A stretch of 64,000 nucleotides of DNA from Desulfobacteraceae bacterium (GTDB taxonomy: Bacteria > Desulfobacterota > Desulfobacteria > Desulfobacterales > SKZT01). The position numbers and the translations under genes were made by a program. Where the stretch lies: contig JAABTQ010000002.1 in assembly GCA_011389745.1 (NCBI GenBank), forward strand, positions 186,001-250,000, written 5' to 3'. This document shows, piece after piece, positions 24,549 through 55,424 of the stretch. Under the pieces are notes generated by a model. It was given only the letters and a program-made list of their open reading frames with translations, was not told where the DNA came from and searched no databases. Each line of letters starts with the position of its first letter. Position 1 is the first letter of the stretch.

Positions 24549-26024
24549 ATGGTGACAGATGCCAATAAATCAAGTTTCTCCGAAAAGAAATACCAGAGAT
24601 GGATATTCAGCATTTTTACAGTCTTTATCACGGGAATTTTAACTCTGATTTTATTTGGCTGCGCCGGTCCATCTGAGAAACGTGCAGAGCAGGAATCATT
24701 CGAGCAATGGTTACAAAAAGACAATGAGTTGTATTCCGGACGGAACATTAATCTGCAAAAGGCGGTCCAGCCACGCCAACATAACGAACCGGCCCCTCTC
24801 TTTTCCGAAGATGCGACTTTTGATGACTATGTGCGATATGCGGTGCGGCACAATCCGGGTTTGGAAGCTGCTTTCTATCGATGGCGGGCCGCTCTGGAAC
24901 GTGTGCCCCAGGTGAAGACACTACCTGATCCTCAGGCATCATTCGGAATCGTGATCGATCAGGTGGATGGAAGTTCGGAATACATGGGAGAGCGTTACTC
25001 GATTTCACAAATGTTTCCCTGGTTTGGCAGGCTAAAACTCCGTGGTGATGTTGCCCTGGAAGAAGCGCATGCCGAAGCAAGGCAATTTGAGGCTGCTCGA
25101 TTGGAGCTGATTGACCAGGTCAGCCGGACATATTTCGAATATGCTTACCTTCATCAAGCCATCGCGATTGCGCGTGAGAACCTGGACCTGCTCATCCGCA
25201 TGGAATCAGTCGCCAGAGCCATGTATCGTGCGGGAGGTGCGAGCCTTTCCGATGTTAATCGTGCCCAGGTCGAAATCGGCCGTGTTGAAGATCAGGTTCG
25301 TTCCCTCGAGGATATACTCGGGGTGGCGACTTCCGAACTGAATACGGCACTAGGCAGGCCCGCACATGCCTACCTTCCGCCTGTGCCCGCTGGTTCATCG
25401 GCTAAAACGGTCACCGATTTGCCCGACTATTCCGACGAACAGTGGATAACTTTAGCCAAAGAGAGTAATCCCGAACTTGCCGCCGCCCGGCATGATGCGG
25501 CAAGACAGGGTCATGCGATTGAACTGGCGCGGAAAGACTATTTTCCGGACTTCACGTTTGGAGCCGAGTATGCCCGTGACGGCAGCGCACGCATGGCGAT
25601 GATGGATGGTGGTGGTTCGGACATGCTCGCACTGACGGTATCGATCAACCTTCCGATCCGGCGGGAAAAGTACGAGGCGGGTACCCGTGAAATGACAGCA
25701 CGCTTTGGCGAGGCGACCCGACAGATACGGAGTCGGGAGGACAAATTGGAAGCCGAACTCAAACGGGCACTCTTCAACTACCGGGACAGCCGTCGTAAGG
25801 TCGAACTGTATGGCGGCACCTTATTGCCCAAAGCCGGTGAATCATTGAGGATCACAGAAGCGGCATACCGCGCGGGCGATAACGGATTTATCGACCTGAT
25901 TGATGCGCAACGTGTTCTGCTCGAGTTCGCACTGGCTCACCAACGCGCGGCCGCCGACGGCGCCCAGGCGTTCACACGAGTTCAGACCCTGGTTGGTCAT
26001 GAGACGGGTTTTGTGAACCAATGA
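24549..26024 (+). CDS. TolC-family outer-membrane efflux lipoprotein (CusC-like)
   Basis: The signal peptide ends in a lipobox, LILFGCAGPSEK, so this is a lipid-anchored outer-membrane factor. Two TolC repeats are seen: FDDYVRYAVRHNPGLEAAFY ... AYLHQAIAIARENLDLLIRM and WITLAKESNPELAAARHDAA ... YRAGDNGFIDLIDAQRVLLE. The protein should form the trimeric outer-membrane channel of the tripartite metal pump encoded by the next two genes. AAAGGAA precedes the ATG. The operon's GC-rich codon use differs from its flanks, hinting at later acquisition. Confidence 0.93.
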   Translation: MVTDANKSSFSEKKYQRWIFSIFTVFITGILTLILFGCAGPSEKRAEQESFEQWLQKDNELYSGRNINLQKAVQPRQHNEPAPLFSEDATFDDYVRYAVRHNPGLEAAFYRWRAALERVPQVKTLPDPQASFGIVIDQVDGSSEYMGERYSISQMFPWFGRLKLRGDVALEEAHAEARQFEAARLELIDQVSRTYFEYAYLHQAIAIARENLDLLIRMESVARAMYRAGGASLSDVNRAQVEIGRVEDQVRSLEDILGVATSELNTALGRPAHAYLPPVPAGSSAKTVTDLPDYSDEQWITLAKESNPELAAARHDAARQGHAIELARKDYFPDFTFGAEYARDGSARMAMMDGGGSDMLALTVSINLPIRREKYEAGTREMTARFGEATRQIRSREDKLEAELKRALFNYRDSRRKVELYGGTLLPKAGESLRITEAAYRAGDNGFIDLIDAQRVLLEFALAHQRAAADGAQAFTRVQTLVGHETGFVNQ

Positions 26025-26087: not shown

Positions 26088-28055
26088 ATGACCTTATCAA
26101 ATAGTCGTTGGAAAAAATCAGCATTGTGGACCGCCCCGGTCGTGATTGGCCTGGTTGGATTTTTTCTGGGTTGGCTGATTTTTGGTACAGGCAATCACAG
26201 CCAGGTAGATCCGACGATAAGTACGACGGAAGCTCGATCTGCAGAGCAAGGCGTCCAACAGATGTACACCTGCTCCATGCATCCGCAAATCAGATCGCCC
26301 AACCCCGATGATAAATGCCCCATCTGTGGAATGGACCTGATTCCCGTTCCTGCTGATGAGGACCCGGACATGGAAAGTGAACTTCCCCGGCTTCGTCTAA
26401 CAGACCGAGCCGTTGGCCTGATGCAGATTCAGGTGTGGCCGGTTGAAGGACGTCAGATGTCTGTACCGGTGAGACTTTACGGTCGGCTCGGCTATGATGA
26501 GACTCGTCTTCGGACAATCGCTGCCTGGGTACCCGGACGATTGGACCGGCTTTATGTTGATTTTACCGGTACTTTGGTTCGAAAAGGGCAGCCGATGGTT
26601 GAAATTTACAGCCCCAGGTTGATTGCGGCCCAGGAAGAGTTGCTGCAAACCATTCGAAGTGCTCAGGAACTGAAAAAGAGTGGACGCGGCCTGGTTCTTG
26701 ATAAAACGCTTCTGACAGTTGATGCTTCCTATGACCGGCTTCGCCTTCTGGGTCTTGGTGAAGATCAGATCAAGCGCATTGAAAAGCAAGGACATGTTGA
26801 TGATCATCTGGTGATTCCTGCCCCCTCAGGTGGGATAGTTATCGAAAGGCTGGCCTCTACAGGAGACTATGTGGAAACCGGCCAACCGATCTACCGGCTG
26901 GCTGATCTGTCCCATCTGTGGGTTCAGCTGGAGGTTTACGAGTCCGACCTGCAATGGCTGGAATTGGGGCAGAAAGCGATTTTCAACACACAAAGCCACC
27001 CTGGAAAAAATTTCGAGGGAACCGTTTCGTTTATCGATCCTGTTTTAAATGATCGTACAAGAACCCTTCGTGTCCGGGTTGATATTCCGAATCCTGACGA
27101 TCTTCTTAAACCGGGTATGTTTGTCCGGGGTTTTATTGAAGCAGGTCTGGAAGGGTATCAGGCCCGTAGTCAATCAAAAGTTGAACAAGAAAATCATCAG
27201 GGTCAGGTGACCACCCATGAGAAAAGACCAGCAATGCAGGCCGGTGATATGCCGCTGGTTATCCCGGCCACTGCACCTCTGGTCACCGGTGAACGGGCGG
27301 TGGTGTATGTGCAGCTTCCCAAAACGGAAAAACCGACCTTTGAGCCTCGTGATATTGTTCTGGGGCCTAAGGTAGGGGCATGGTATATTGTGCATGAGGG
27401 GTTGAGTGAAGGCGAATTGGTCGTCACTAATGGAAGTTTCAAGATCGATTCGGAGCTTCAAATCCGTGGGCGGCCAAGCATGATGCAGCCTGAAGGAGGG
27501 GCTCCTCCGGTGCATGATCATGGCGGCTCTGCGGCTCAGGCAGCCGAACCTCCGAAACAAACCAGGTCTGAACCGTTTCGGGCACCTTCAGCATTCAGGG
27601 CACAACTTGGCCGGCTTGTGCTCGCCAATTTCGAGCTTGTGAATGCCCTGGCCTCGGATAATCTTCAAGAGGCGCATCAGGCCGCTCAAAAAGCTGACGG
27701 AATGATTGATCAGATCGAACAGGATAAACTCAGCAGTGATCGCGAACGGCAACAATGGAATCTTTTAGCCAAAAGCCTTCATAACTCATTAGTTGCAGTG
27801 ATGGAAGCCGATGATTTGTCTTCCCAGCGTCAGCATTTTGAGTCTTTTAGCGACACACTGACAGAGGCAGTTCGGGCCTTTGGCGTTGAGCAGACAGGTC
27901 CAGTCCACAGAGCTGTGTGTCCTATGGTTCAGGGCCGAAAGGGCTACTGGCTTCAGCCGCAAAGGGATATTACGAATCCCTATTTCGGAGCCGTGATGCT
28001 CACTTGCGGAGAAATCGATGAAACACTTGTTGAACCTGATACCCACGATCATTGA
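26088..28055 (+). CDS. CusB-like RND periplasmic adaptor with metal-binding and DUF3347 domains
   Basis: This 655-aa adaptor has an N-terminal membrane anchor (VVIGLVGFFLGWLIFG), then a heavy-metal-binding domain YTCSMHPQIRSPNPDDKCPI (CxMH and CPxCGM), the CusB hairpin/lipoyl/barrel parts (YGRLGYDETRLRTIAAWVPG, LVIPAPSGGIVIE, LAKESL-like helices) and HlyD_D23 features. The C-terminus carries DUF3347 (LVLANFELVNALASDN ... RAVCPMVQGRKGYWLQ ... YFGAVMLTCGE) with CPM and CGE motifs suited to copper binding. It bridges pump and channel and may hand Cu(I)/Ag(I) to the pump. Confidence 0.93.
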   Translation: MTLSNSRWKKSALWTAPVVIGLVGFFLGWLIFGTGNHSQVDPTISTTEARSAEQGVQQMYTCSMHPQIRSPNPDDKCPICGMDLIPVPADEDPDMESELPRLRLTDRAVGLMQIQVWPVEGRQMSVPVRLYGRLGYDETRLRTIAAWVPGRLDRLYVDFTGTLVRKGQPMVEIYSPRLIAAQEELLQTIRSAQELKKSGRGLVLDKTLLTVDASYDRLRLLGLGEDQIKRIEKQGHVDDHLVIPAPSGGIVIERLASTGDYVETGQPIYRLADLSHLWVQLEVYESDLQWLELGQKAIFNTQSHPGKNFEGTVSFIDPVLNDRTRTLRVRVDIPNPDDLLKPGMFVRGFIEAGLEGYQARSQSKVEQENHQGQVTTHEKRPAMQAGDMPLVIPATAPLVTGERAVVYVQLPKTEKPTFEPRDIVLGPKVGAWYIVHEGLSEGELVVTNGSFKIDSELQIRGRPSMMQPEGGAPPVHDHGGSAAQAAEPPKQTRSEPFRAPSAFRAQLGRLVLANFELVNALASDNLQEAHQAAQKADGMIDQIEQDKLSSDRERQQWNLLAKSLHNSLVAVMEADDLSSQRQHFESFSDTLTEAVRAFGVEQTGPVHRAVCPMVQGRKGYWLQPQRDITNPYFGAVMLTCGEIDETLVEPDTHDH

Positions 28056-28066
28056 AAAGAAAACAG

Positions 28067-31000
28067 ATGAACAATCAACGTTCCTTTTTAGATGGCATCA
28101 TCCGCTTCTTTCTCGAACAGAAACTGGTGGTGATTCTTCTGGTACTGCTGATCGGCTTTGCCGGTGTGGCGGTTGCGCCGTTCGACTGGCGGATCGACTG
28201 GCTTCCGCGAAGCCCTGTTCCGGTCGATGCGATTCCAAACCTCGGTGAAAACCAGCAGATCATTTTTACCGAGTGGACCGGTCGATCACCGCAAGATGTT
28301 GAGGATCAGGTCACCTACCCCCTGACCGTATCACTGCTGGGCGTGCCGGGAGTCAGGGAGGTCCGGAGTCTGTCGAGTTTCGGATTCTCAATGATCTTTC
28401 TGATCTTCGAAGATGGGACCGAATTCTATTGGTCACGTTCGCGTATTCTCGAAAAACTTAACAGTTTGCCATCAGGGTTGCTTCCTGAAGGTGTTCAACC
28501 TGCTTTGGGGCCGGATGCTACTGCGCTGGGTCAGATATTCTGGTACACACTTGAGGGAAGGGATCCGCAAGGATTGCCTGTCGGAGGCTGGGATCTTCAC
28601 GAAATACGCAGTGTCCAGGACTGGTATGTCCGCTACGGTCTTCTGGCTGCTGCGGGGATTAGCGAAGTTGCCTCGATCGGCGGATATGTGCAGGAGTACC
28701 AGATCGATGTTGACCCGGATGCCATGCGCGCCTATGGTGTCACGCTAGATCAGATTTTCTCGGCTATAGCAAAAAGTAATCTCGATGTCGGTGCCGGGGT
28801 GACGGAAATCAACCGTGTTGAGTACATATTGCGAGGCGTGGGGTTCATTAAAGAACTTGCAGATATAGAAGAAGCTGTTGTTGATGTTGGTTCTGATCGT
28901 ATACCGATCCGAATTCGAGATGTGGCAATGGTAACCCTGGGGCCGGCAGAGCGACGGGGGGTGCTTACCCAGATGGGAGCCGAAGCCGTTGGAGGGGTGG
29001 TCGTTGTGCGGGAAGGTTTCAACCCCCTGGAGGCCATCAACAATGTAAAGGAAAAAATCTCCGAAATCTCACCCGGCTTGCCCTCAAAAGTCATAATTGA
29101 CTGGACTCGAACAAGCACTGCCGACATCGAAAAATTTGCACGGAATAACGGCTTTGATGCTTTTGCAGTTGCTGATTCCCCTATCCTTAACCACGAGGAA
29201 TGGCTCAATTGGTTGAGGGCAAATTCCCCGGAAGTTTGGCCGGAATGGGTTACTGTCAGTCAACTTAAGGTCGTTCCCTTCTATGACCGAACCGGTCTGA
29301 TCCATGAAACTCTGGGTACTCTGAACGACGCCCTGCTCCAGCAAATACTGGTTACCATCATTGTTGTTATTGTGATGGTTCTTCACCTGCGCGGTTCAGT
29401 GGTCATCAGCGCCATGCTGCCGCTGGCGGTGCTGATGTGCTTTATTTTCATGAAACTGTTCGGCATAGACAGCAATGTCGTGTCCCTGGCAGGTATTGCC
29501 ATTGCCATCGGCACGATCGTGGACATGGGCATCATCGTGACTGAAAACGTGCTCAAGCATCTGAAGGAAGCACCCGGGGATGAACCTCGCATCGAGGTTG
29601 TTTACCGGGCGACAAGCGAGGTAAGTTCGGCCATTCTCACCGCGATCAGCACCACCGTGATCAGTTTCCTTGCCGTATTTACCATGACGGGCGCCGAAGG
29701 CAAGATGTTCACTCCGCTGGCCTTCACAAAAACATTTGTTCTGATCGGAGCGGTGATTGCCGCACTGACCGTGGTTCCGGCGGCTATTCATGTGCTGGTG
29801 GCAGGCCGGATTAATTGGCGGCAGTCCCGCCGGATGCTGCTTTTCGGATTGGCTTTGGCAGCGGTGCTGGTGACGGTTATAGGTATCGGACAGAGGTGGA
29901 CGATGGTGTGGATCTCCGGCCTTATCCTTTTGATGATCATATTTGTTCATCTGTACCGGGACTATCTGCCAATGAGGTATCGGATGATCCTCGAACGAAT
30001 CGATGGTTCCGCCGCAAGCCTTACCGGAATTGCACCCTGGATCGCCAGTGCCGTCGCTGTGCTTGCTATCGGCTGGCTGCTCACGACGGTATGGGAGCCC
30101 CTGGGCCCTGAACGCGGCTTTATCCGAAATGCCATTTTCGTGACGGTTTTGGTCGGAGGTCTTCTCGGCGTATTTTTCGCATTCCAATACGTCTATGCCC
30201 CGATTCTCCGATTCTGCCTTGACCATAAGGTAATATTTTTGATGTTTCCCATTGTGTTGGTGTTCCTGGGCGCAAGTGTCTGGGTAGGGTTTGACCGCAT
30301 GTTTGGTTTTATTCCTGCGACAGCCAAGCGGGTAGGGATGGATCCGCAAACCATCCGCACCAGTCCGCCCTGGGTGTGGGCCTCCCATGAGTTGCCCGGC
30401 CTGGGCCGCGAGTTCATGCCGCCATTGGATGAGGGCTCTTTTCTGTGGATGCCGACAACCATGCCTCACGCGTCGCTGGGAGAAGCACTCGAGGTGCTTC
30501 AGTATCAGGACATGGCCATTGCCTCCGTTCCGGAAGTGGAAAATGTTACCGGTAAGATCGGTCGGGCCGAGAGCCCACTGGACCCGGCTCCGGTTTCAAT
30601 GATCGAGACCATAATCGATTATAAATCCGAATATATTACCGATGAAGCCGGACGACGTATTAATTTCAGATATGACAAAAAAGGTGATGAGTTTGTTTAC
30701 GATGATAATGGTCAACTGATCCCGGATCCATCAGGCCGCCCCTTCCGGCAATGGCGTGATCATATCCGCACCCCGCAGGACATCTGGGATGAAATTGTCA
30801 AAGCAGCACATATTCCGGGCACTACCAGCGCTCCGAAGCTGCAGCCCATTGAAACCCGCCTTGTCATGCTGCAGACAGGCATGCGCGCCCCCATTGGAAT
30901 CAAGCTTCGCGCCCCCGACCTGAATACTCTGGACAGAGTGGCCGTGGAGATTGAAGGTCTCGTACGACAGGTTCCATCGGTAAATACCGCCACGGTAAAT

Positions 31001-32086
31001 GCAGACCGGGTGGTCGGCAAACCTTACTTTGAAATCGAGATTGATCGTACAGCCATTGCCCGATACGGACTGAATATCACGGATGTGCAGGATGTGATCA
31101 CGGTGGCTATTGGTGGCAGAACCATCACCACGACCGTCGAGGGAAGGGAACGCTACCCTGTGCGTGTTCGTTATCCGCGTGAACTGCGCGGTGATCCGGA
31201 TGCTATCAGACGTGTCCTTGTATCCGCAAAAGACGGGACCCAGATTCCACTTGGGGAAGTAGCGGACATTCGCTATACGCGAGGCCCTCAAATGATCCGC
31301 AGTGAAGATACTTTCCTGACCGCCTACATCACGTTTGGTCCGCGACCCGGTCTTGCGGAGGTGGAGGTGGTCGAGCAGGTTCGGGACTTTCTCAATGCCG
31401 GGATTGATTCGGGTGAATTGATCGTTCCCTCGGGTGTCAGCTGGCGTTTCGCCGGTACTTACGAGCACCAGCTTCGGGCGGCCCGCACACTTAAAATTGT
31501 ATTGCCGGTGTCGATGATGATCATATTCCTGATCCTCTACTTTCAGTTCAGGTCGGTGGCCACAACATTAATCGTTTTCAGCGGGATCGCCGTAGCCTGG
31601 GCCGGTGGGTTTGTCATGATTTATTTTTATGGTCAGGACTGGTTCGGCAATTTCGAAATCTTTGGCGTTAACATGCGTCAACTTTTCCAGCTTCATGCCA
31701 TCAATCTAAGTGTCGCGGTTTGGGTCGGTTTTCTGGCGTTATTCGGTATCGCCACCGACGACGGCGTGGTGATCGCTACCTACCTCAAGCAAAGTTTTGA
31801 TAAACGACGCACTGAAACCGTGGCTGAACTTCGGTCCGCCACCATCGCAGCCGGCCTGCGCCGTGTCCGTCCCTGCCTGATGACCAGTGCCACGACCATT
31901 CTTGCCCTGTTGCCCGTACTTACCTCTACGGGTCGGGGTGCCGACATCATGATCCCCATGGCCATTCCCAGTGTCGGCGGCATGAGCCTGGTGCTGCTGA
32001 CCATGTTCACCGTGCCTGTATTGTTTTGTCTGGTAGAAGAAATCAAGCTGAAACTGCGTATCGGAGAATACCGAAACCCGGTGTAG
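28067..32086 (+). CDS. CusA/CzcA-type RND heavy-metal efflux pump, long variant
   Basis: This is the inner-membrane proton-driven pump. RND hallmarks are VDAIPNLGENQQIIFTEW, GIAIAIGTIVDMGIIVTENV (TM4 acid), LDEGSFLWMPTTMPHASLGE and FLALFGIATDDGVVIATYLK. Methionines in MPPLDEGSFLWMP and RLVMLQTGMRAPIGIK fit the CusA copper relay, so Cu(I)/Ag(I) is likely. At 1,339 aa it is about 300 aa longer than E. coli CusA: a loop of about 45 residues precedes VVPFYDRTGLI, and several extra hydrophobic helices lie after AIHVLVAGRINW. I prefer ATG 28067 to the overlapping TTG 28052. Confidence 0.92.
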   Translation: MNNQRSFLDGIIRFFLEQKLVVILLVLLIGFAGVAVAPFDWRIDWLPRSPVPVDAIPNLGENQQIIFTEWTGRSPQDVEDQVTYPLTVSLLGVPGVREVRSLSSFGFSMIFLIFEDGTEFYWSRSRILEKLNSLPSGLLPEGVQPALGPDATALGQIFWYTLEGRDPQGLPVGGWDLHEIRSVQDWYVRYGLLAAAGISEVASIGGYVQEYQIDVDPDAMRAYGVTLDQIFSAIAKSNLDVGAGVTEINRVEYILRGVGFIKELADIEEAVVDVGSDRIPIRIRDVAMVTLGPAERRGVLTQMGAEAVGGVVVVREGFNPLEAINNVKEKISEISPGLPSKVIIDWTRTSTADIEKFARNNGFDAFAVADSPILNHEEWLNWLRANSPEVWPEWVTVSQLKVVPFYDRTGLIHETLGTLNDALLQQILVTIIVVIVMVLHLRGSVVISAMLPLAVLMCFIFMKLFGIDSNVVSLAGIAIAIGTIVDMGIIVTENVLKHLKEAPGDEPRIEVVYRATSEVSSAILTAISTTVISFLAVFTMTGAEGKMFTPLAFTKTFVLIGAVIAALTVVPAAIHVLVAGRINWRQSRRMLLFGLALAAVLVTVIGIGQRWTMVWISGLILLMIIFVHLYRDYLPMRYRMILERIDGSAASLTGIAPWIASAVAVLAIGWLLTTVWEPLGPERGFIRNAIFVTVLVGGLLGVFFAFQYVYAPILRFCLDHKVIFLMFPIVLVFLGASVWVGFDRMFGFIPATAKRVGMDPQTIRTSPPWVWASHELPGLGREFMPPLDEGSFLWMPTTMPHASLGEALEVLQYQDMAIASVPEVENVTGKIGRAESPLDPAPVSMIETIIDYKSEYITDEAGRRINFRYDKKGDEFVYDDNGQLIPDPSGRPFRQWRDHIRTPQDIWDEIVKAAHIPGTTSAPKLQPIETRLVMLQTGMRAPIGIKLRAPDLNTLDRVAVEIEGLVRQVPSVNTATVNADRVVGKPYFEIEIDRTAIARYGLNITDVQDVITVAIGGRTITTTVEGRERYPVRVRYPRELRGDPDAIRRVLVSAKDGTQIPLGEVADIRYTRGPQMIRSEDTFLTAYITFGPRPGLAEVEVVEQVRDFLNAGIDSGELIVPSGVSWRFAGTYEHQLRAARTLKIVLPVSMMIIFLILYFQFRSVATTLIVFSGIAVAWAGGFVMIYFYGQDWFGNFEIFGVNMRQLFQLHAINLSVAVWVGFLALFGIATDDGVVIATYLKQSFDKRRTETVAELRSATIAAGLRRVRPCLMTSATTILALLPVLTSTGRGADIMIPMAIPSVGGMSLVLLTMFTVPVLFCLVEEIKLKLRIGEYRNPV

Positions 32087-32120: not shown

Positions 32121-34019
32121 TCAGGATTTCGGTTTTGGTGAACCATCGATTACGCTCCGAAACCCAACCTTTTCAAATGCCTCCCAGGGATAGCGACTAA
32201 GTGGAGTCGGAAATCCGGTGCCCCTGGCTTTTTCTCTGAATATCTCACCAAGAAGGACATAGTCTGCTCCCGCGTTTTCCTCGGCTCCGCTGACATGCCT
32301 TATCCCCCATTCGCCGATATTGGCGTTTAAGCCCCTGATGCCCAGGGCATTGGGCTGGTATACCATGACCGGAGAAATAATCGGCAAGGATTTATCTGAT
32401 TCCAGAGAAGCCGATCCATCCTCGGCTAAAGATTTCACAGTCCTGAGCGCATAATACCATTCGATATCGGTCGGAAGGCGCTTGTTATAATAACGGGCGT
32501 ATGCCGCCGCACCGTATCCGGTCACCCGGAGTACCGGACATGTCGCATGATGGGCGGCTTTCACATGGAAATCGCCGTCTCTGTATTCGATGGGCTCATA
32601 ACCCGCTATCACTTCACCCAGTATCAACCAGATAATTCCGTCTCCTTTGACCACCCCATTATCCACCGTAATTCTTGTCAGTACCTGGTTCAGGTATTCG
32701 ACATACTGGTGATTGGTCACGGGAAATATATCCATATAAAAAGAATCGACCCGGACCTGCCTTGATCCCTCCGGCTGAAAATTTTCCGGAAGAATGACCT
32801 CACCTCCCGGAATAAGATTCAACATGCCTTCATCCTCTCCTTTAATGCTCACAGGCATGTCCGATGGCCAGATGACCACCGGCTTCTGTGATGAGGACCG
32901 ATCGGGGTCACGGGAGGTTTCGAAATTTTTTTGATCAGTCATGGCCGGAACGGATATATCGCCGGTTTTTTCCCCTCTTCGTTCGCCCAAAACAAAAACG
33001 CCCGCAGCTCCTGCAACCGCGACAACGACCATAACGGTGAAGAGTATGATCCACTTATTTAATTGTGATGAACCTTTTGGCGCAACCACCTCCGATCCGT
33101 CGGTTTCAATTCGTCCGGCAGGTGGTTTTGGTATATGGTCTTTGAGTACCTGGCCCACCGCGTGGCTCATTTCTTCCGTTGCCGGGAGCCGCTCAATTTT
33201 ATCTTCCGCCGTGGCATGCCGGATAATTTGGTTTAATCCGTTAAAAAGCGTTCCTTTGGAATTTTTTAACTGAACCTGTTTGAAGGGGATGTGCTCCGAT
33301 GTCATTTTTCCGTCAAGTGCTTCGTACAGGATCTTTCCAAGCGCATAAACATCGGCCCGATGGTCGGTTCGTCGCATATCCATGAACTGCTCCTGGGGCA
33401 TGTAAGGAGGAGTTCCCATCATGTGAACGGAGCGAGTAATCGGTTTAAGAGCACATGAACTTGCCAACCCGAAATCGGCTATTTTAGGAGTATTGCCGGC
33501 AAGAAGCACGTTTTCCGGCTTCAGGTCCCGGTGTACGATGCCGCATTCATGGAGTACCCGCACACCGTCAAGCAATGGCAGAAAGTAAGTGGTAAGCCAT
33601 TCCACTGTCAGATCTTCCTCGGGATAAAACCCTTCCTCTGACATTGTGGCTCGCAAGGTTGAACCCGGAACATATTCCATGGCAATGTATTCGACGACAT
33701 GCTCTGTTTCGTCTCTTCGGATCTTTGCGGAACCCTGGTCGAAAATCTGCAAAACATTGGGATGCTGTATCTGCGCCATGACTTGAACTTCTCTGTGAAA
33801 TCTCTCCAGGGAATTTTCCAGTTCCTCAGTGTCACAATCAAAGGAGTTCAACCACTCCTGGGAGATGATTTTGATGGCGGCATCCCGTTTGAGGTTGAGC
33901 TGATGGGCTCGATAAACTTCACCCATCCCACCCTTTCCGATAAACTCGAGAATAACCCATTTATCGTCGAGCACCATGCCCACCCGGAGTGTTGCTTTGT
34001 CACGATCAGTCATAGTCAC
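32121..34019 (-). CDS. Membrane Ser/Thr kinase with extracytoplasmic SUMF1 (FGE-fold) domain
   Basis: Residues about 20-290 are a Hanks-type kinase: GKGGMGEVYRAH, AAIKII (Lys), GIVHRDLKPENVLL and IADFGLAS; the APE motif is altered to PQE. A transmembrane helix (IILFTVMVVVAVAGAAGVFV, about 322-345) leads to an outside SUMF1 domain from about 400: VDSFYMDIFPVTNHQYVEYL, KRLPTDIEWYYA, and WEAFEKVGFRSV. FGE enzymes end in GFRC with catalytic Cys; here it is GFRS, so the domain probably binds a ligand. Start GTG 34019 overlaps the preceding gene's TGA (GTGA). Last gene of the PP2C-SUMF1-kinase operon. Confidence 0.93.
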   Translation of the reverse strand: MTMTDRDKATLRVGMVLDDKWVILEFIGKGGMGEVYRAHQLNLKRDAAIKIISQEWLNSFDCDTEELENSLERFHREVQVMAQIQHPNVLQIFDQGSAKIRRDETEHVVEYIAMEYVPGSTLRATMSEEGFYPEEDLTVEWLTTYFLPLLDGVRVLHECGIVHRDLKPENVLLAGNTPKIADFGLASSCALKPITRSVHMMGTPPYMPQEQFMDMRRTDHRADVYALGKILYEALDGKMTSEHIPFKQVQLKNSKGTLFNGLNQIIRHATAEDKIERLPATEEMSHAVGQVLKDHIPKPPAGRIETDGSEVVAPKGSSQLNKWIILFTVMVVVAVAGAAGVFVLGERRGEKTGDISVPAMTDQKNFETSRDPDRSSSQKPVVIWPSDMPVSIKGEDEGMLNLIPGGEVILPENFQPEGSRQVRVDSFYMDIFPVTNHQYVEYLNQVLTRITVDNGVVKGDGIIWLILGEVIAGYEPIEYRDGDFHVKAAHHATCPVLRVTGYGAAAYARYYNKRLPTDIEWYYALRTVKSLAEDGSASLESDKSLPIISPVMVYQPNALGIRGLNANIGEWGIRHVSGAEENAGADYVLLGEIFREKARGTGFPTPLSRYPWEAFEKVGFRSVIDGSPKPKS

Positions 34020-35071
34020 TGTTGCTGAACATCCAAAACGGTTCGAAATCCAACTTCTGCAAAAGCTTCCCAGGGATAGCGGTGGAGCCCGGAGGCAACC
34101 TCATTTTGCAGCGAAGGACCACCGGGCATTCCTCCCAGCACGACATACATCGTATCACTAAATTCTCCAGTGTCTGCATCATCGATTTGCAGACCCCACT
34201 CGCCGATGTTTGAATTTATTGCCCGAATTCCAAATTCATTTGCCTGGTAAAGCAGGACCGGTGACGGCACCGGCAACTTGGTCGGCACCGTATCACCATT
34301 GATGACGGCATGCATCCATTCGGCTTCCGTGAGCAGCCTTTTCCCATGGAATCCGGCATAAGCCGATGCGCCGTGCCCTGTTACACGCAATACCGCACAG
34401 GCGGCATGATGAACGCCATTGACACTGAAATTGCCATCCTTAAAGATGATAGGCTCATAAGCTTCTTTCACTACGCCGAGGAGCAGCCAAATCTCGTCGT
34501 TTCCGCGAACAATGCCGTTTTCCACCTCAATAACCGACAGGTTCTTATTCAGGAACTCCACATATTGATGATTGGTTACGGGAGTTTCATCAAGATAAAA
34601 GGCATTCACTGTAATTTGTTTTATTTCCGTGGTTCCACGGATTCGCGGCAAGTCTATCCGCCCTTCCGGAATCAGGCGCATGATCATATCATCATGCCAG
34701 GGCAGCACTGCTTTTTCGCCCGCCGGCAAAGGAAACCCCGGTGAGCCATGTTCGTCATGCACCGCCTTTTCGGGTGGCGACTCGGGTGATTCGGCGGCTG
34801 GCGTCCCCACATCGCTCGTCCGGTTTTGCTCAGGTGGTGTTGCTTTTTCCTGATAATGGCTGTGGGGCAGTTCTCCGCCATCATGACTGTGGTAATATTC
34901 TCCGTGTCGATGTTCGGGTTGCCGTTCCTCGACACCTGGGCCCTGCTGTTGCAGCGGCTTTTCCGTATCCTTTTCGCCATGCATATGGCCGCTCCTGTGC
35001 ATCATGGCCAAAGCCGGCAGGGTCAAAAAAATCAAACTAAGCAATAGTATCATTATTAATTGTTTTTTCAT
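34016..35071 (-). CDS. Secreted His-rich SUMF1-domain protein
   Basis: True start is ATG 35071 (MKKQLIMILLLSLIF), giving a signal peptide to ALA-MMHRSGH. A linker rich in His (HRSGHMHGE, EHRHGEYYHSHDGG, ELPHSHYQE) and Pro/Glu follows, then a SUMF1 domain related to those of the two kinases (VNAFYLDETPVTNHQYVEFL, GFHGKRLLTEAEWMHAVING, WEAFAEVGFRTVLD). It has no kinase domain and GFRT replaces the catalytic GFRC. It is probably periplasmic, with the His clusters able to bind metal such as Cu, Zn or Ni. It overlaps the PP2C gene by 35 bases and the kinase gene by four. Confidence 0.88.
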   Translation of the reverse strand: MKKQLIMILLLSLIFLTLPALAMMHRSGHMHGEKDTEKPLQQQGPGVEERQPEHRHGEYYHSHDGGELPHSHYQEKATPPEQNRTSDVGTPAAESPESPPEKAVHDEHGSPGFPLPAGEKAVLPWHDDMIMRLIPEGRIDLPRIRGTTEIKQITVNAFYLDETPVTNHQYVEFLNKNLSVIEVENGIVRGNDEIWLLLGVVKEAYEPIIFKDGNFSVNGVHHAACAVLRVTGHGASAYAGFHGKRLLTEAEWMHAVINGDTVPTKLPVPSPVLLYQANEFGIRAINSNIGEWGLQIDDADTGEFSDTMYVVLGGMPGGPSLQNEVASGLHRYPWEAFAEVGFRTVLDVQQQ

Positions 35072-35936
35072 ATATCTTATACCGTTTTGAATATCGTTTT
35101 TCCCGGGACTCTCCCAAAAAAAGAGCGCTTTGGACCACAATAACCGTCACATTGTCCTTTCCACCGTTTTCAATGGCTTTTTCGACAAGGCGGTCGACTA
35201 TTTTTCGAGGATCTGCCTTATTTCCCAGCACTTCGATGATCGTCTTGTCGGACACCATGTTGGTTAGCCCGTCGGAACATAAAAGAAATCTGTCCCCCGG
35301 CTCAACCGGCACTACATCAGAGAAAACCGTCTTCAGGGGTTCTTCGGTTCCCAGCGCCTGTGTTAGCATATTGCGCAGGGGGTGGGTCCCGACGTCATCC
35401 TCAGTCATCTCCCCCTCGTCGATCATCTCCTGGACAAAAGTGTGATCCGGTGTTAACCGGGTCAGTTCTCTGCCTCTGAGCTTGTAAATCCGACTGTCTC
35501 CCACATGAGACAATACCGCCTGCCCCTTCAACAACACCATGGCAGACAGGGTGGTTCCCATGTCGTCCAAGGTTTCATCGCTATGCGATTTAATCCGAAT
35601 ATCCTCGTCGATTTTGTGGAAAATGGAGGTCAGGGACTTTTGGTGCGCCTGGGTCGACGGTTGCTTACGCTCATTATTGTTCAAATGCACCATGTGTTCA
35701 TAGTAGGACAGAATACCGTCGCATGCCATCCGGCTAGCGATATCGCCTCCCCTGTGGCCCCCGAGACCATCGGCCACCGCAAACATCATCCCCAGCCTGC
35801 CGATGTCATCTCCTCCTCTCGAACCATCTGCTATCACCCAACTGTCCTCGTTTACGGCACGTTTCAGCCCGATATCCGTCCGGACAGCATACCGTATCCG
35901 GTCGAACCAATTTTTGGGAAAATTTTCTGTTGACAT
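35037..35936 (-). CDS. PP2C-family Ser/Thr protein phosphatase
   Basis: The metal-ligand motifs of bacterial PP2C/Stp enzymes are all present: RTDIGLKRAVNEDSW, FAVADGLGGHRGGDIAS, LSHVGDSRIYKLR, FLLCSDGLTNMVSD and GGKDNVTVIVVQ. It is soluble and cytoplasmic and should dephosphorylate targets of the neighbouring kinases. It is first in the operon PP2C-SUMF1-kinase, with AAAGGAAT before the ATG. A short hydrophilic C-terminal tail (about 25 aa) follows the domain. Confidence 0.95.
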   Translation of the reverse strand: MSTENFPKNWFDRIRYAVRTDIGLKRAVNEDSWVIADGSRGGDDIGRLGMMFAVADGLGGHRGGDIASRMACDGILSYYEHMVHLNNNERKQPSTQAHQKSLTSIFHKIDEDIRIKSHSDETLDDMGTTLSAMVLLKGQAVLSHVGDSRIYKLRGRELTRLTPDHTFVQEMIDEGEMTEDDVGTHPLRNMLTQALGTEEPLKTVFSDVVPVEPGDRFLLCSDGLTNMVSDKTIIEVLGNKADPRKIVDRLVEKAIENGGKDNVTVIVVQSALFLGESREKRYSKRYKIYEKTINNDTIA

Positions 35937-36206
35937 GAAATTCCTTTACCTTCTTTTTTTTTATTCATGTAATTTCAATCGAATATTAAAAATATAATAC
36001 CTGAATATCTAAAAATCCATGCAAGAGAGCCTTTTATGCATGTTCGTCATCTTTACATTCCCCCTACCTGCCATTGACATGACCAGCTAGGATCTTTAGT
36101 TTAACAGATAATGATACTTGATATGCATATTATTCACTGCCTGAAACATCAGCAAAAAAATTGTCCAATAATGCAACCAGGCTTGAAAATAAAAGAGGAG
36201 GAAATC

Positions 36207-36371
36207 TTGAGTATTCATGTTGGACTTGTCAGGCAAATAAAAGAAACCGGCTTGGCTGAGGTGCAAACCGACAGGCAAAATGCCTGCGGAGGTTGTCAAT
36301 CCTCTGATGGCTGTCGTGCTTGTCTTTCAGGAGGAGGGAAACTGTTAAAGAAACAATCCTGCTGCGGATAA
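36207..36371 (+). CDS. Mini RseC-like Cys-rich protein
   Basis: The track starts at 36111, but GAGGAGG is placed five bases before TTG 36207, which gives a 54-residue protein: IHVGLVRQIKETGLAEVQTD, then RQNACGGCQSSDGCRACLSG and KKQSCCG. The CGGC-x5-C pattern matches the N-terminal part of RseC/MucC, whose membrane helices are absent here. It may bind an Fe-S cluster or metal. It sits just ahead of the second kinase gene and could be co-transcribed with it. Confidence 0.65.
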   Translation: MSIHVGLVRQIKETGLAEVQTDRQNACGGCQSSDGCRACLSGGGKLLKKQSCCG

Positions 36372-36410
36372 TCGAATATTAACGATGACGGTAACGCAAA
36401 CAGAGGGGAT

Positions 36411-38231
36411 ATGAACGAAACCGCCAAAAACACATTGAACGTGGGAACGATTCTGAATGAAAAATGGGTCATTCTGGAGTTTATTGGCAGAGGCGGTATG
36501 GGAGAGGTTTATCGGGCTCATCAGATCATCCTGAAAAGGGATGTTGCTATCAAGGTTATTTCTAGGGAGTGGCTTTCATGTATCACCGACGATGAACAAG
36601 AAGTGGAAACCGCGCTGCAACGATTCGAGCGTGAGGTTCGTGCAATGGCCCAGATACGCCATCCCAACATAGTTCAAATTTTCGACTACGGCATGGATTC
36701 GATCCATTACGACGGAGAAAATAATACAATTCATTACATTGTCATGGAATATATTCCCGGCAATACTTTACGGGAGACAATGTCCGAGCAGGGGTTCGAA
36801 CCCGAGGAAGACTTAATACGCGAATGGCTGACCCGGTATTTTCTTCCCATTCTCGATGGTATCGAAGCCATACACAAAGCCGATATGGTGCACCGGGACC
36901 TGAAGCCGGAGAATTTTCTCATAAGTGGCGATATTCCTAAAATTGCCGATTTTGGGATCGCAAGATCTTGCCGGTGGCGGGCGGTAACCAATTCGATTGA
37001 TATAAAAGGTACCATCATGTATATGGCACCCGAGCAGTTTATGGATTTCCGGCGAACCGACCACCGGGCCGATATCTATTCCCTGGGAAAAATTCTCTAC
37101 GAAGCTATCAGCGGAAAGATGGGCTCGCAAAACAAGCATATCCATTTCAAGTCGGTAGGCCTCGAAAACGCAGGAACTCCTTTTTTCAAAGAACTGGATA
37201 AAGCTATTTACATGGCAACCGCCGAGGAAAAAGAGGAGCGGTTGGATTCCATTGAACAACTTCGAAGCAAGATTCTACATGCCCTTACCTTGACCGAAAA
37301 ATCAGGTAAAACGACTTCAGATGGTTCGGCAAAAGAAATGCGTTTTCCCTTCCTTCATAGGGCTGCATGGATCTGGGCCGGTGTTGCGGTGGCGGTGTTG
37401 TCGATGGGTCTGATGACGCTATGGCACCTTTTAGGAGAACCAGGAGGGGGTTTCGATATAAGGCCGGAAGAGAAACTGAAAGTACATGAAAAGCAGATTA
37501 CCCCGCAATCCCGGATAACTCCTGACCTTTTAGGTAAATCCATAACCACGGAAGATGGTTCCACCATGTTTTACATAGACGGTGGAAAAGTTACCCTTCC
37601 AAAAACAAACGGGGAAAAAATCACGGTCGATCCTTTTTATATGGATGAAAATCCTGTAACCAACCAACAGTATGTCAAATTCCTTAACGAGGTCTCCGCA
37701 AAACCGGGCGTTGCAAACAATGTGGTTCTCGGCGATGGCAATATCTGGTTTTTTCTGGGAGAGGTCATGGAAGGCTATGATCCCATTTCCTATCGGGATG
37801 GAAAATTTTTCATCACCCATTCCGGACACTCAGCATGCCCCGTATTGCGGGTGACGGCTTTCGGAGCGGAAGCATATGCCGAATTTTACGACAAACGCCT
37901 TCCCACCGAGGCAGAATGGCTTTATGCCTACCGAAATGGGACTGACGCCGGCGGAGATGACTCCGGCTTTTTTCCTATTCCAACCCCGGTAATCCTTTTG
38001 GACAAAAACCGCTTTGGCATTCGCGGCCTCAACCAGAGTATCAACGAATGGGTCTTCCGGTCCGAATCAAAAGATACTGAAACCCCGGTTTTGGAACCTG
38101 AATACATGATCGTTGGAAACATTGGTGTGGAAAAAAGCGAAAAAGCAACATTGTCTTTATTGAAACGACTCCCTTGGGAGGCCTTCGAGACAGTGGGATT
38201 TCGAGGTGCTAAAGATGTTTCAGAAAAATAA
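36411..38231 (+). CDS. Membrane Ser/Thr kinase with SUMF1 domain (second copy)
   Basis: This 606-aa protein is the divergent homologue of the kinase at 32121-34019: GRGGMGEVYRAH, VAIKVI, DMVHRDLKPENFLI, IADFGIARS and an intact MYMAPEQF. A transmembrane helix (WIWAGVAVAVLSMGLMTLWH, about 322-342) precedes the outer SUMF1 domain (VDPFYMDENPVTNQQYVKFL, DKRLPTEAEWLYAYRNG, WEAFETVGFRGAKD). The catalytic FGE cysteine is again missing. GAGGGG precedes the ATG. Both kinases flank the phosphatase gene, giving two sensors with one eraser. Confidence 0.94.
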   Translation: MNETAKNTLNVGTILNEKWVILEFIGRGGMGEVYRAHQIILKRDVAIKVISREWLSCITDDEQEVETALQRFEREVRAMAQIRHPNIVQIFDYGMDSIHYDGENNTIHYIVMEYIPGNTLRETMSEQGFEPEEDLIREWLTRYFLPILDGIEAIHKADMVHRDLKPENFLISGDIPKIADFGIARSCRWRAVTNSIDIKGTIMYMAPEQFMDFRRTDHRADIYSLGKILYEAISGKMGSQNKHIHFKSVGLENAGTPFFKELDKAIYMATAEEKEERLDSIEQLRSKILHALTLTEKSGKTTSDGSAKEMRFPFLHRAAWIWAGVAVAVLSMGLMTLWHLLGEPGGGFDIRPEEKLKVHEKQITPQSRITPDLLGKSITTEDGSTMFYIDGGKVTLPKTNGEKITVDPFYMDENPVTNQQYVKFLNEVSAKPGVANNVVLGDGNIWFFLGEVMEGYDPISYRDGKFFITHSGHSACPVLRVTAFGAEAYAEFYDKRLPTEAEWLYAYRNGTDAGGDDSGFFPIPTPVILLDKNRFGIRGLNQSINEWVFRSESKDTETPVLEPEYMIVGNIGVEKSEKATLSLLKRLPWEAFETVGFRGAKDVSEK

Positions 38232-51230: not shown

Positions 51231-54200
51231 ATGAGCAAAAATAAAAAATGGATATTCATGACTATGGCAATGGTGGTGGTGATTTTTGCCTGGGGGCTTT
51301 ACCCGGCAGGAGCGAAAAACACCAAAACACCACCGGGACAAGAAAAAAAAGCGGCAAAAGTAACCCAAGCCGAAAGAGATGCTGCGGCTGCCCGGGCGTT
51401 GCAGGATGGCAAACTAAACCCGCTGATGGTGGACATGCAGACGACGCCGGAAGAGCCGGGCGAAGCACCGCGGTACTTCAGCCACCCCAACTACGCCAAT
51501 AGCCCTCTGCCTGAGATTTCAGGCGCGACCATCTCGGTCGGCAACCCGTTGATCGATCGGCAATACGCCTCTGATTACCCGGTGGACGTGGGCGAGTTGG
51601 CCCCAGTCTTCGTGGTCCTACCGGCTCCATTGCCCGATGGAATGATCCAGTCATTCCAAACCTGGAACCAGGCGGATAGGGGCGCGAGTCCGTTTCCATC
51701 GGCGGGCAATGTGTTCCATGCCTACGTGCTGCGCCCGACTGGTAACGCCAACGAGTTCACCGTAGTATTCGATAGCGGTTTGCTCACCGTACCAGATTTG
51801 ACGGACCCGGCTGCAAGCCAGATCGCTACGTTCGGCGTGGCCAACCTGGCTGTCCAGGCCGGCGACCTGCTCGCTTTCTATGGGCAGGGCATCCCGGTTG
51901 ACGCAGACGGGGGGCCAGACGTCCTGCACTACCCTGCCGCCCAACCGCTGCAAGGTAAGAACATCACCCTCGGCAGCGCCAATTATCCGGTCTTCCCCCA
52001 GGCGCGCACCTATTCCTTCGGGGCGCAGGTGCTCGATATGGCGAACCCGATCATCACGGGCGGCATTCGCAAGTTCGTCGATGGATTGTCCGGGTTAGGT
52101 GCCGGCGCGATGAACAACCTCGATCAGTACATCCCGGTGGCGGTTCCCGACACGACCACCTACTCCGGCTCGGACTATTATGTTATCGAACTGGGAGAGT
52201 ACACCGAGCAGATGCATTCCGATCTGGAACCGACCACCCTGCGCGGCTACCGCCAGGAAGGCGGTGACTACCACTACCTGGGGCCCGCCATCGTGGCCGA
52301 GAAAGACCGCCCCGTGCGCATCCTGTTCCGCAACCTGCTGCCGTCCGGCGCAGCGGGCAACCTGTTTATCCCGGTGGACACCACCGTGATGGGCTCGGGC
52401 ATGACCGCTACGGGTCACGTGATGGACCCCACGATGGTCGACCCGCAGGTTCCCATGTGCAACGAGCCGGATCCAATGATGAAGGCGCAGATGGTGGCCG
52501 ACGGCCGCTGCTACGCCGAAAACCGCGCCACCCTGCACCTTCACGGCGGGATCACTCCCTGGATCTCCGACGGCACGCCCCACCAGTGGATCACGCCTGG
52601 GGATCAGTCCACTCCTTACCCGGAGGGCGTCAGTGTGGTGCCTGTGCCCGACATGGACCCCCCGGCTGACGGTGAAATGACCTTCTTCTACACCAACCAG
52701 CAGAGCGCCCGGTTGATGTTCTACCACGACCACGCCTGGGGCATCACCCGCCTGAACGTTTACGCCGGCGAGGCAGCGCCTTATATTGTTACCGATGCTA
52801 CCGAGAAGGCGCTGATCGACGAGGGATTAATCCCCGGACCGGATGACACCATCCCGCTGGTGGTCCAGGACAAGACCTTCGTGCCGCCTTTGGCCCAACT
52901 CATGGAACAGGATGAGACCTGGGACATGGACCGCTGGGGCGGCGAAGGCAGCCTGTGGCTGCCCCACGTCTACTCCCCGGCCCAGAACCCGGGCGACGCC
53001 TCGGGCGTCAACGAGTACGGCCGCTGGGCCTACGGCCCCTGGTTCTGGCCGCCCACAAGCAGCATCGAATACGGGCCGATCGACAACCCCTACTATGACG
53101 AGGACTGCAACCCTGACATTGAATGGTGCGAGCCGCCGCTGATGCCGGGCACGCCATTCAACTCAATGGGCATGGAAGCGTTCATGGATACGCCCGTGGT
53201 GAACGGTACGGCCTACCCGACCCTCACCGTGGACCCGAAGGCCTACCGCTTCCGCGTGCTGAACGCGGCCAACGATCGCTTTTTCAACTTGTCGCTTTAC
53301 GTGGCTGTCGACGCCAACGGTAACCCGTGCGATGCCGCCAACAACAATCCGGTGCCCGAATCCACCGGCGTGGCCTGCACCGAGGTGATGCTGAACCCTG
53401 CTGAGGTGGCGGCTGCCCTGGAAGATTCGACTATTTTCCCGACTCCTGTGGTTGGGACCGAGGGGCCGGACTGGATTGCGATCGGCACCGAGGGCGGCTT
53501 CCTGCCGGCTCCGGTCGTCATCCCGGCCCAGCCCACAACCTGGGTCAACGATCCGACCCTGTTCAACGCTGGTAACGTGGACAAACACTCGCTGCTGGCC
53601 GCCCCGGCCGAGCGGCATGACGTGATCGTGGATTTCTCCCAGTTCGCCGGTTACACACTGATCCTGTACAATGACGCCCCGGCAGCTTTTCCGGCGCGCG
53701 ACCCGCGCTACGACTACTACACGGGTGACGGAGATTACCGCGACACGGGCGGCACGCAGTCCACTCTGCCCGGCTACGGGCCGAACATCCGCACCGTCAT
53801 GCAGATCAAGGTCAATAGCGGGGCAGGTGTGAGTTTCAACCTTGCTGCGCTGCAAAACGCCTTCAGGTCCGAGAACCTGGGTGGAATGGGCGTGTTCGAA
53901 TCCGGCCAGAAGCCGATTATCGTGGGGCAGGCAGAGTACAACGCTGCCTATGGCACATCTTTTACAACCAATGGTCCTCGCAACGGGACCGCGCAGATAT
54001 ACGATACGTCGCTGACCTTCGACACCCTCAGTGGCAATGAGCTTACCATCGATTTAAAACCCAAGATGATCCAGGACGAGATGGGTGAGGCGTTCGACTT
54101 GGAGTACGGGCGCATGAGCGGATTTTTAGGAGTGGAGACGCCCAACGCCCAGGCCGGTCTGCAGAACATGATACTGTACGGTTACACATTCCCGCCCACT

Positions 54201-55424
54201 GAGGTCATTAAGGGTATCGAGTTGCCGCCGGGCATGGAAGTGGAGCCGATTTTGGCCGCCGACGACGGGACGCAGATCTGGAAGATCACCCATAACGGAG
54301 TGGATACACACCCCATCCACTGGCACCTGTACGACGTTCAGGTGCTGAACAGGGTCGGCTGGGACGGCATTATCCGCAAGCCCGAGGCCAACGAACTGGG
54401 CTGGAAGGATACGGTGCGGGTCAGCCCGCTCGAGGACACCATTGTCGCGCTGCGGCCGATCATACCGAATATACCCGAAGCGTGGGGCGGACTGCCCAAT
54501 AGCATCCGCCTGCTCGACCCTTCCATGCCGGAGGGGGAGTACCTGATGGGCGGAAACACCACCCAGCGTGAGGCCGGGGGCATGGTGGTCCTGGCCTTCA
54601 GCCCGGAAACCGGCGAGCCGATCGACGTGGTCAACCACTTCGTGAACTTCGGCTGGGAGTACGTTCTCCACTGCCATATCCTGAGCCATGAGGAGATGGA
54701 CATGATGCGGGCGCAGGTCGTCGGAGTGGCGCCCGCGGAACCGACGTTCCTGTCGGCGGTCCGAACCGGAAACGGCAATAATCGTCGCTACACCGTGACC
54801 TGGATGGACAACTCGAAGAACGAGACCGCCTTCGTTATCGAGCGTCGGGTGGCCGGCTCGACCGGCGCCTGGACGACCATTGCAACGGTGCCATCCACAA
54901 CGCTTGGTGTCGTCCCGTTCGCAGGCGTCGGCAATGCTCCGTTGACCGGCCAGCGGACGCACATCGACCCGATCGGCAACACCAACACGCTATACGAGTA
55001 CGATGTGTACGCGATCAATGTGGTCGGGGACATCTGGGATTACTCGGACCCTGCACTCAACAACCTTCTGCCGGGCGGCGGATTTCCGACCCTGACGCTC
55101 AGTTCCCGCGATGGGGAAACGACGGTGCCCAGCGGAATTCCGGCCCCAACGAAATTGGATGGAGCGGCTGTGCCCAAGAACAAGAACTCGGCGACCGTAA
55201 CCCTTAACTGGACGGACAATGCCACGAACGAGACGGGATTTTTGATCCAGCGGGCCTACAACATTGGCTTTACCTCGGGCGTGGTCAATGCCACGGTGAA
55301 AAGCGATGTCACCTCGTTTAGCCAGACGGTGGCGCGTGGCACCACCTTCTTCTACCGGGTGCATGCCTTCACCGCCACGTCCCAGTCCGGGTGGTCGAAT
55401 ATCGTAAACGTAGTCACGCCGTAA
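51231..55424 (+). CDS. Giant multicopper oxidase with C-terminal fibronectin type III domains
   Basis: A signal peptide (FMTMAMVVVIFAWGLYPAGA) exports this 1,397-aa enzyme. All copper motifs are present in order: LHLHGGITPWI (about 433), MFYHDHAWGITR (about 495), HPIHWHLYD (about 1025) and HCHILSHEEMDMM (about 1147; type 1 Cu with axial Met). Most MCOs are 400-700 aa, so long inserts separate the cupredoxins. After about 1165 come two FN3-like units (RYTVTWMDNSKNETAFVIER, VTLNWTDNATNETGFLIQRA). Codon use is visibly GC-richer than all neighbours, suggesting recent transfer. AAGGAG precedes the ATG. It oxidises metal ions or phenolics with O2; a diheme peroxidase gene follows. Confidence 0.92.
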   Translation: MSKNKKWIFMTMAMVVVIFAWGLYPAGAKNTKTPPGQEKKAAKVTQAERDAAAARALQDGKLNPLMVDMQTTPEEPGEAPRYFSHPNYANSPLPEISGATISVGNPLIDRQYASDYPVDVGELAPVFVVLPAPLPDGMIQSFQTWNQADRGASPFPSAGNVFHAYVLRPTGNANEFTVVFDSGLLTVPDLTDPAASQIATFGVANLAVQAGDLLAFYGQGIPVDADGGPDVLHYPAAQPLQGKNITLGSANYPVFPQARTYSFGAQVLDMANPIITGGIRKFVDGLSGLGAGAMNNLDQYIPVAVPDTTTYSGSDYYVIELGEYTEQMHSDLEPTTLRGYRQEGGDYHYLGPAIVAEKDRPVRILFRNLLPSGAAGNLFIPVDTTVMGSGMTATGHVMDPTMVDPQVPMCNEPDPMMKAQMVADGRCYAENRATLHLHGGITPWISDGTPHQWITPGDQSTPYPEGVSVVPVPDMDPPADGEMTFFYTNQQSARLMFYHDHAWGITRLNVYAGEAAPYIVTDATEKALIDEGLIPGPDDTIPLVVQDKTFVPPLAQLMEQDETWDMDRWGGEGSLWLPHVYSPAQNPGDASGVNEYGRWAYGPWFWPPTSSIEYGPIDNPYYDEDCNPDIEWCEPPLMPGTPFNSMGMEAFMDTPVVNGTAYPTLTVDPKAYRFRVLNAANDRFFNLSLYVAVDANGNPCDAANNNPVPESTGVACTEVMLNPAEVAAALEDSTIFPTPVVGTEGPDWIAIGTEGGFLPAPVVIPAQPTTWVNDPTLFNAGNVDKHSLLAAPAERHDVIVDFSQFAGYTLILYNDAPAAFPARDPRYDYYTGDGDYRDTGGTQSTLPGYGPNIRTVMQIKVNSGAGVSFNLAALQNAFRSENLGGMGVFESGQKPIIVGQAEYNAAYGTSFTTNGPRNGTAQIYDTSLTFDTLSGNELTIDLKPKMIQDEMGEAFDLEYGRMSGFLGVETPNAQAGLQNMILYGYTFPPTEVIKGIELPPGMEVEPILAADDGTQIWKITHNGVDTHPIHWHLYDVQVLNRVGWDGIIRKPEANELGWKDTVRVSPLEDTIVALRPIIPNIPEAWGGLPNSIRLLDPSMPEGEYLMGGNTTQREAGGMVVLAFSPETGEPIDVVNHFVNFGWEYVLHCHILSHEEMDMMRAQVVGVAPAEPTFLSAVRTGNGNNRRYTVTWMDNSKNETAFVIERRVAGSTGAWTTIATVPSTTLGVVPFAGVGNAPLTGQRTHIDPIGNTNTLYEYDVYAINVVGDIWDYSDPALNNLLPGGGFPTLTLSSRDGETTVPSGIPAPTKLDGAAVPKNKNSATVTLNWTDNATNETGFLIQRAYNIGFTSGVVNATVKSDVTSFSQTVARGTTFFYRVHAFTATSQSGWSNIVNVVTP

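Follow-up and report, generated by a model that had tools for sequence, protein, structure and literature searches.

A candidate transition-metal-responsive receptor Ser/Thr kinase module with inactive FGE-fold outer domains in a Desulfobacteraceae genome

The window analysed in this work is a stretch of 64,000 nucleotides (contig JAABTQ010000002.1, positions 186,001 to 250,000) from the 3.6 Mb genome of a Desulfobacteraceae bacterium. The module under study lies at 32121-38231 of the window. It consists of the genes for a PP2C-type Ser/Thr phosphatase, for a secreted protein with the fold of formylglycine-generating enzyme (FGE; also SUMF1), here named S, and for two receptor kinases, K1 and K2, that each carry an FGE-fold outer domain. 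We propose that this module is a periplasmic receptor Ser/Thr kinase system with its own PP2C that responds to a transition metal, most likely Cu+ or Ag+. The probability that we assign to this reading is roughly 0.58. The reading is built on the copper/silver efflux genes beside K1, on the linkage of the kinase family to metal-resistance genes, and on Met/His-rich segments that are found in S or in the outer domains of related kinases. The features of the module are listed below, where L001 (Desulfocapsaceae) and L002 (Syntrophobacteraceae) denote two related loci.

35037-35936, minus strand: PP2C-type Ser/Thr phosphatase of the Stp1/IreP family (Pfam PP2C_2, 78 bits; NCBIfam NF033484).
34016-35071, minus strand: S, secreted FGE/SUMF1-fold protein (Pfam FGE-sulfatase, 56 bits; signal peptide from sequence; homologues in L001 and L002).
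34976-35005, minus strand: Met/His-rich mature N-terminus of S (MMHRSGHMHG), right after the signal peptide, conserved in S of L001 and L002.
34856-34912, minus strand: His-rich motif of S (HRHGEYYHSHDGGELPHSH), near-identical in three families.
34016-34720, minus strand: FGE-fold domain of S, without the catalytic Cys pair (family alignment).
32121-34019, minus strand: K1, Hanks-type Ser/Thr kinase with a single transmembrane helix and an FGE-fold outer domain (Pkinase, 136 bits; FGE-sulfatase, 69 bits).
33108-33953, minus strand: kinase domain of K1 (Pfam Pkinase, residues 23-304).
32988-33053, minus strand: transmembrane helix of K1 (hydrophobic stretch WIILFTVMVVVAVAGAAGVFVL; hydropathy).
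32121-32864, minus strand: outer FGE-fold domain of K1 (Pfam; FGE structures are the top matches of its AlphaFold model).
36411-38231, plus strand: K2, divergent kinase-transmembrane-FGE receptor (Pkinase, 139 bits; FGE, 62 bits), with its transmembrane helix at about 37362-37436 and its FGE domain at 37521-38231.

The genes of PP2C, S, and K1 run leftward and overlap at their ends. The stop codon of PP2C falls within S, and the stop codon of S (TGA, 34018-34016) overlaps the GTG start of K1. K2 runs rightward from a 5' region that is common to it and the minus-strand genes. A preliminary description of this DNA had reported a coupled PP2C, secreted SUMF1, and kinase-transmembrane-SUMF1 set with a second such kinase divergent from it, and this layout is confirmed, with all four genes at the coordinates above and with domains well above the Pfam cut-offs. 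The start of S was revised. The listed open reading frame (ORF) opens at a TTG inside PP2C, and the ATG at 35071 is the likelier start because the signal peptide (MKKQLIMILLLSLIFLTLPALA) begins there. The phosphatase scores 234.1 bits against NF033484 (Stp1/IreP), above the cut-off of 230. Both kinases have intact VAIK, HRDxKPxN (HRDLKPEN), and DFG motifs and, by sequence and hydropathy, a single transmembrane helix ahead of the outer domain. In the activation segment, PQE or AQE replaces APE in K1 (PQE) and in its orthologues in L001 and L002, and K2 retains APE. No PASTA domain was matched in K1 or K2, and NF033483 reaches only 201-224 bits over the kinase part against a cut-off of 450. In a promoter scan, no excess over shuffled sequences was seen.

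The genes of a CusCBA-type pump lie beside K1.

28052-32086, plus strand: CusA-type heavy-metal resistance-nodulation-division (RND) pump, convergent with K1 across a gap of 34 bp (TIGR00914, 753 bits, over the cut-off).
26088-28055, plus strand: CusB-like adaptor with a heavy-metal-binding domain and DUF3347 (domain search; CusB fold).
24549-26024, plus strand: CusC/TolC-like outer-membrane channel (domain search).

The best PDB match of the RND pump is E. coli CusA at 614 bits, compared with 366 bits for the CzcA-like zinc pump ZneA. The Met triad of E. coli CusA (M573/M623/M672) is Met at all three positions of the window pump in the alignment. On these sequence grounds, the window pump is assigned to the Cu/Ag type. 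It belongs to a long CusA subfamily (about 1300 residues; also at L104, L105, and L113) whose members are 51-59% identical to the window pump and have extra sequence compared with E. coli CusA. Such relatives were seen in 23 sampled genomes.

The kinase-FGE family was collected beyond the window and consists of 90 FGE-fold domains, 87 kinases, and 89 loci. A genome scan gave 20 loci that are all labelled Desulfobacterota or Deltaproteobacteria, and two loci (L012 and L016) were placed in Myxococcota when the tree was built. With a profile of the domain, members were detected in 71 of the 390 genomes searched in the order and in 28 of the 395 searched across the phylum. Nearly every member is a kinase-transmembrane-FGE fusion. 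The HRDxKPxN pattern is kept in 80 and the DFG pattern in 82 of the 87 kinases.

At least one metal-resistance gene is present near 50 of the 89 loci, and where both flanks extend for 6 kb or more the number is 21 of 29. The nearby families include P1B ATPases (22 loci), multicopper oxidases (14 loci), Metal_resist clusters (13 and 7 loci), and Cus components. The linkage was tested on 85 loci in 74 genomes with an expectation based on genome size. A CopA-type ATPase lies within 10 kb of 15 loci where 0.93 are expected (about 16-fold, p 1e-13). A CusA lies within 10 kb of 11 loci where 0.52 are expected (about 21-fold, p 1e-11), in a count where the window pump, which is not among the matches listed, was added by hand. 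Linkage to copper genes is thus found across lineages. Kinase and pump share a strand at L012, L016, L098, L105, and L113, where the kinase is either 13-64 bp off a pump gene or joined to it via PP2C, and at L102 the gap is 247 bp. If the latter half of one split gene is set aside, 13 RND ORFs lie nearby, of which 11 keep the tested CusA Met positions, and most nearby ATPases carry the CopA-type motif ACPCALGLA. Another family member of the same genome as the window (L111) adjoins a CopA ATPase and a multicopper oxidase. A plasmid search with the S domain gave no match, and plasmid-borne resistance was rejected on this ground.

In many family members, the FGE domain bears a Met/His run at one shared position, the loop after the EW.yA helix. 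Examples of these runs are GHMHMMDMNP, HTHMMHQND, MHMMQMDSHMMQMD, and DMNMHTQMHS. When the ectodomains were shuffled with their composition preserved, 26 of 90 were significant at p<0.05 (4.5 expected) and 10 of 90 at p<0.01 (0.9 expected), in a test that is conservative for Met-rich proteins and treats related sequences that are not independent. Among the loci examined, a free S protein was found in the window and in L001 and L002 alone. Their mature N-termini share the consensus MMH/Q..G(H/Q)MHG, and the motif HRHG(E/D)YYHSH(E/D)GG(E/N)LPHSH is nearly invariant across the three families while the linker that flanks it diverges. No relative of the Met/His-rich tail of S was found in the PDB. 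These three cases suggest that the metal site may have been relocated from the kinase to S. No S is found near other clades that lack the loop (the K2-like clade and the f146 group, L095-L103), so the pairing of loop loss with S is not a rule. The preliminary description had left the ligand unnamed, and the metal context together with the conserved Met/His segments supplies a concrete candidate for it.

Several observations weigh against a copper/silver sensor. Only 4 of about 24 copies of the window-pump orthologues adjoin an FGE-kinase, so the link of the kinase family to metal genes is frequent but optional. No metal gene is present in the examined flank of 39 of the 89 loci, including the S-bearing L001 and L002. 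Some nearby ATPases carry SCPCALV or other motifs that are not the copper motif. Regulators abound in metal-resistance islands, and the family loci often have histidine kinases beside them as well. K1 and K2 have no Met/His loop, as is the case for the partner kinases of L001 and L002, and the composition test for the window S alone is not significant.

The ATPase motifs imply that the metal may differ between loci, and they bear on a first alternative in which the module is a general transition-metal sensor, or a zinc, cadmium, or lead sensor, that monitors envelope metal stress in the manner of ZraPSR. SCPCALV replaces ACPCALGLA in at least four of the nearby P1B ATPases, the neighbourhoods often hold Metal_resist proteins (ZraP/CpxP-like), ZraS-like histidine kinases, and sigma-54 regulators, and the S motif is rich in His besides Met. 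However, the pump of the window has the Cu/Ag Met triad, the tested Met positions recur in most RND ORFs nearby, most nearby ATPases are CopA-like, and the loop is richer in Met, which is typical of Cu+/Ag+ sites. This alternative is considered unlikely, although it carries some weight.

The second alternative starts from the generic model of the preliminary description, in which ligand-sensing pairs were suggested and the free SUMF1 protein would compete or assemble with the receptor ectodomains. The ligand of the FGE domains would here be organic or a peptide, and the metal genes would be incidental neighbours. FGE-like folds bind varied small molecules in enzymes (EgtB, SenA, and PvdO are among the structural matches), and the loop-less K1 and K2 and the 39 loci without a metal gene fit this model. 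It would require that a metal linkage far over expectation, the same-strand Cus clusters, and the conserved Met/His segments are all coincidental, and we regard it as quite unlikely.

A third alternative is that the outer domains are variable proteins of a diversity-generating retroelement, since kinases with C-type-lectin variable domains and their paralogues are known in cyanobacteria (PMC7517822). Three RVT_1 matches are present in the genome and none is on the contig of the window, in a search aimed at reverse transcriptases and not at template repeats. The C-terminus of the domain, which is the expected site of a variable region, is conserved across the family (RxPWEaFxxVGFR). This origin is highly improbable and was rejected, as the contig of the window has no reverse transcriptase match.

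The three outer domains of the window match Pfam PF03781 (FGE-sulfatase) at 55.7-69.4 bits against a cut-off of 23.3. FGEs are the best Foldseek matches of the AlphaFold models (pLDDT 67 and 62), with E values of 1e-4 to 1e-6 and TM-scores of 0.31-0.49. Membership of the FGE fold is supported by these models, which are of middling confidence. Modelling was poor in the last third of the K1 domain and in the L016 Met-rich loop, and no metal site was therefore read from the models. FGE catalysis requires a copper-binding Cys pair, C-x4-C (human C336/C341), and the C336S and C341S mutants of FGE, which are among the structural matches, give this spacing. The pair was found in the C-terminal part of none of the 90 family domains, the three window domains included, and 32 of the 90 have no Cys at all. 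The domains are predicted from these alignments to be catalytically dead. The preliminary description had called them inactive because they end in GFR(S/T/G) instead of GFRC. The ending and the inactivity both hold for the window domains. The reasoning does not, because 41 of the 90 domains end in GFRC yet none has the Cys pair, and GFRC was rejected as a marker of activity. The idea of active FGE-type maturases that are fused to kinases and mature sulfatases or other periplasmic proteins agrees with the Pfam membership and the FGE-like fold, is already contradicted by the missing Cys pair and by the domains that have no Cys whatever, and has practically no chance of being right.

The trio of a secreted FGE protein, a kinase, and PP2C recurs in L001 and L002 with a gene order that differs from that of the window. 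In the tree, S from the three loci groups in one clade (99/94), the three partner kinases, which are of K1 type, group in another (99/84), and K2 falls in a third clade with members at other loci. Since S and K1 each form a clade, the S-K1 pairing is conserved. Judged from this tree, the S-K1-PP2C trio is an old association across three families in which the gene order has changed. The three FGE domains of the window belong to three separate clades, and a recent tandem duplication was rejected. No second locus with all four genes was found among the family loci. The claim of a dedicated PP2C for receptor kinases whose FGE-fold outer domains are inactive is borne out, as PP2C is near 44 of the 89 loci. 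The four genes had also been expected to occur together in relatives. This expectation holds for the trio, which recurs in two other families, and fails for the four-gene set, which is seen only in the window. K2 is accordingly not a fixed member of the module as had been claimed.

The copper/silver reading can be stated as a sequence of events. A periplasmic metal (Cu+, Ag+, or another transition metal) would be bound by the Met/His segments on the dead FGE-fold domains. The segment would be sited in the outer-domain loop of the kinase itself, as in many relatives, or on S, as in this genome and two other families. Metal-loaded S might then dock onto the homologous outer domain of K1 and perhaps that of K2. 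The docking would alter the pairing of the receptors, by which the cytoplasmic kinase may be switched either on or off. The output of the kinase would adjust efflux and detoxification, possibly through ZraR-like regulators nearby or the pump itself, and the Stp1-type PP2C would reset the phosphorylation. Computation shows the gene content, the topology of the proteins, the lost FGE active site, the recurrent linkage to PP2C and to metal genes, and the conserved Met/His segments. We infer that metal is bound, that S docks on K1, which way the signal runs, and what the kinase phosphorylates. The FGE fold is the fold of a Cu+-dependent enzyme. A broader and more tentative suggestion, which we hold at somewhat short of even odds, is that these proteins represent a new class of Cu/Ag sensor. 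In such a class, periplasmic Cu+ would be sensed by Hanks-type kinases, paired with PP2C, by way of an FGE fold that has been inactivated and carries a Met/His loop, and the segment would have moved to a secreted co-receptor in a minority of lineages, of which the present one is an example.

The module was compared with known systems. The chlamydial NirV/DUF323 kinase, which we take to be Pkn1, is like K1 and K2 a Ser/Thr kinase that is fused to an FGE-like domain. Chlamydial Ser/Thr kinases with a C-terminal NirV/DUF323 (FGE-like) domain are described in PMC1262709, in agreement with the preliminary description, which had noted that kinase-FGE fusions already exist. The PP2C linkage, the metal-gene linkage, and the Met/His segments distinguish the present family, and no such context is given in the available text of that paper. 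CusS and CopS sense periplasmic Cu+/Ag+, as is proposed here, beside efflux and oxidase genes. However, they are histidine kinases with response regulators, whereas the present module has Hanks-type kinases, PP2C, and the FGE fold, and the sensor domains are unrelated. Met133, Met135, and His145 in the outer loop of CusS are extra metal sites (PMC7763554), and this is a precedent for a metal-binding Met/His loop in the present family. PknB/StkP with the Stp1/IreP PP2C share with the module a Hanks kinase, one transmembrane helix, an extracytoplasmic sensor, and an adjacent PP2C of the same NCBIfam family. The module differs from them in that it has no PASTA domains, has an FGE-fold sensor, is found in a Gram-negative periplasm, and lies in metal islands. 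SUMF2/pFGE (PDB 1y4j) is an FGE paralogue without formylglycine activity that both the family profile and the models place among their best PDB matches, although it is a eukaryotic protein of the endoplasmic reticulum that has no kinase and is not a receptor domain.

The Gram-negative systems for periplasmic copper sensing in PMC7763554 are two-component systems. No Ser/Thr kinase proposed as a copper or metal sensor was found in the literature searched, which mostly comprised papers outside subscription. FGE-like kinase fusions and copper-sensing histidine kinases are known, and the Ser/Thr kinases of the present family may plausibly form a new sensor class. If the reading is true, metal stress in Desulfobacterota would be under a new kind of regulation that runs through a Ser/Thr kinase and its phosphatase. 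The receptor kinases with FGE-like outer domains, whose signals were unknown when such fusions were catalogued in 2005 (PMC1262709), would then also have a concrete ligand. The co-receptor arrangement predicts a metal-dependent interaction between S and K1.

Further observations were made on the surroundings of the module and on its relatives. A short ORF lies directly upstream of K2.

36207-36371, plus strand: Cys-rich truncated RseC-like ORF of 54 residues (RseC_MucC, 20.9 bits, below the cut-off of 24.4).

The Cys pattern of this ORF (CGGC..C..C..CC) resembles the N-terminus of RseC, and RseC-like genes are near about 10 further loci of the kinase-FGE family. A protein of 1397 residues, with a multicopper-oxidase domain and then a MauG-like di-haem peroxidase, is found at 51231-55424 and 55391-57007, about 13 kb from K2, and is possibly part of the same metal region. 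Two kinase-FGE genes are close together at L060, L092, and L127, and paired receptors are thus present outside the window as well. A further kinase-FGE paralogue of the same genome is located at 8193-10382 of L111, on another contig than the window. Its frame is split into three pieces in the assembly, which points to a pseudogene or to assembly errors.

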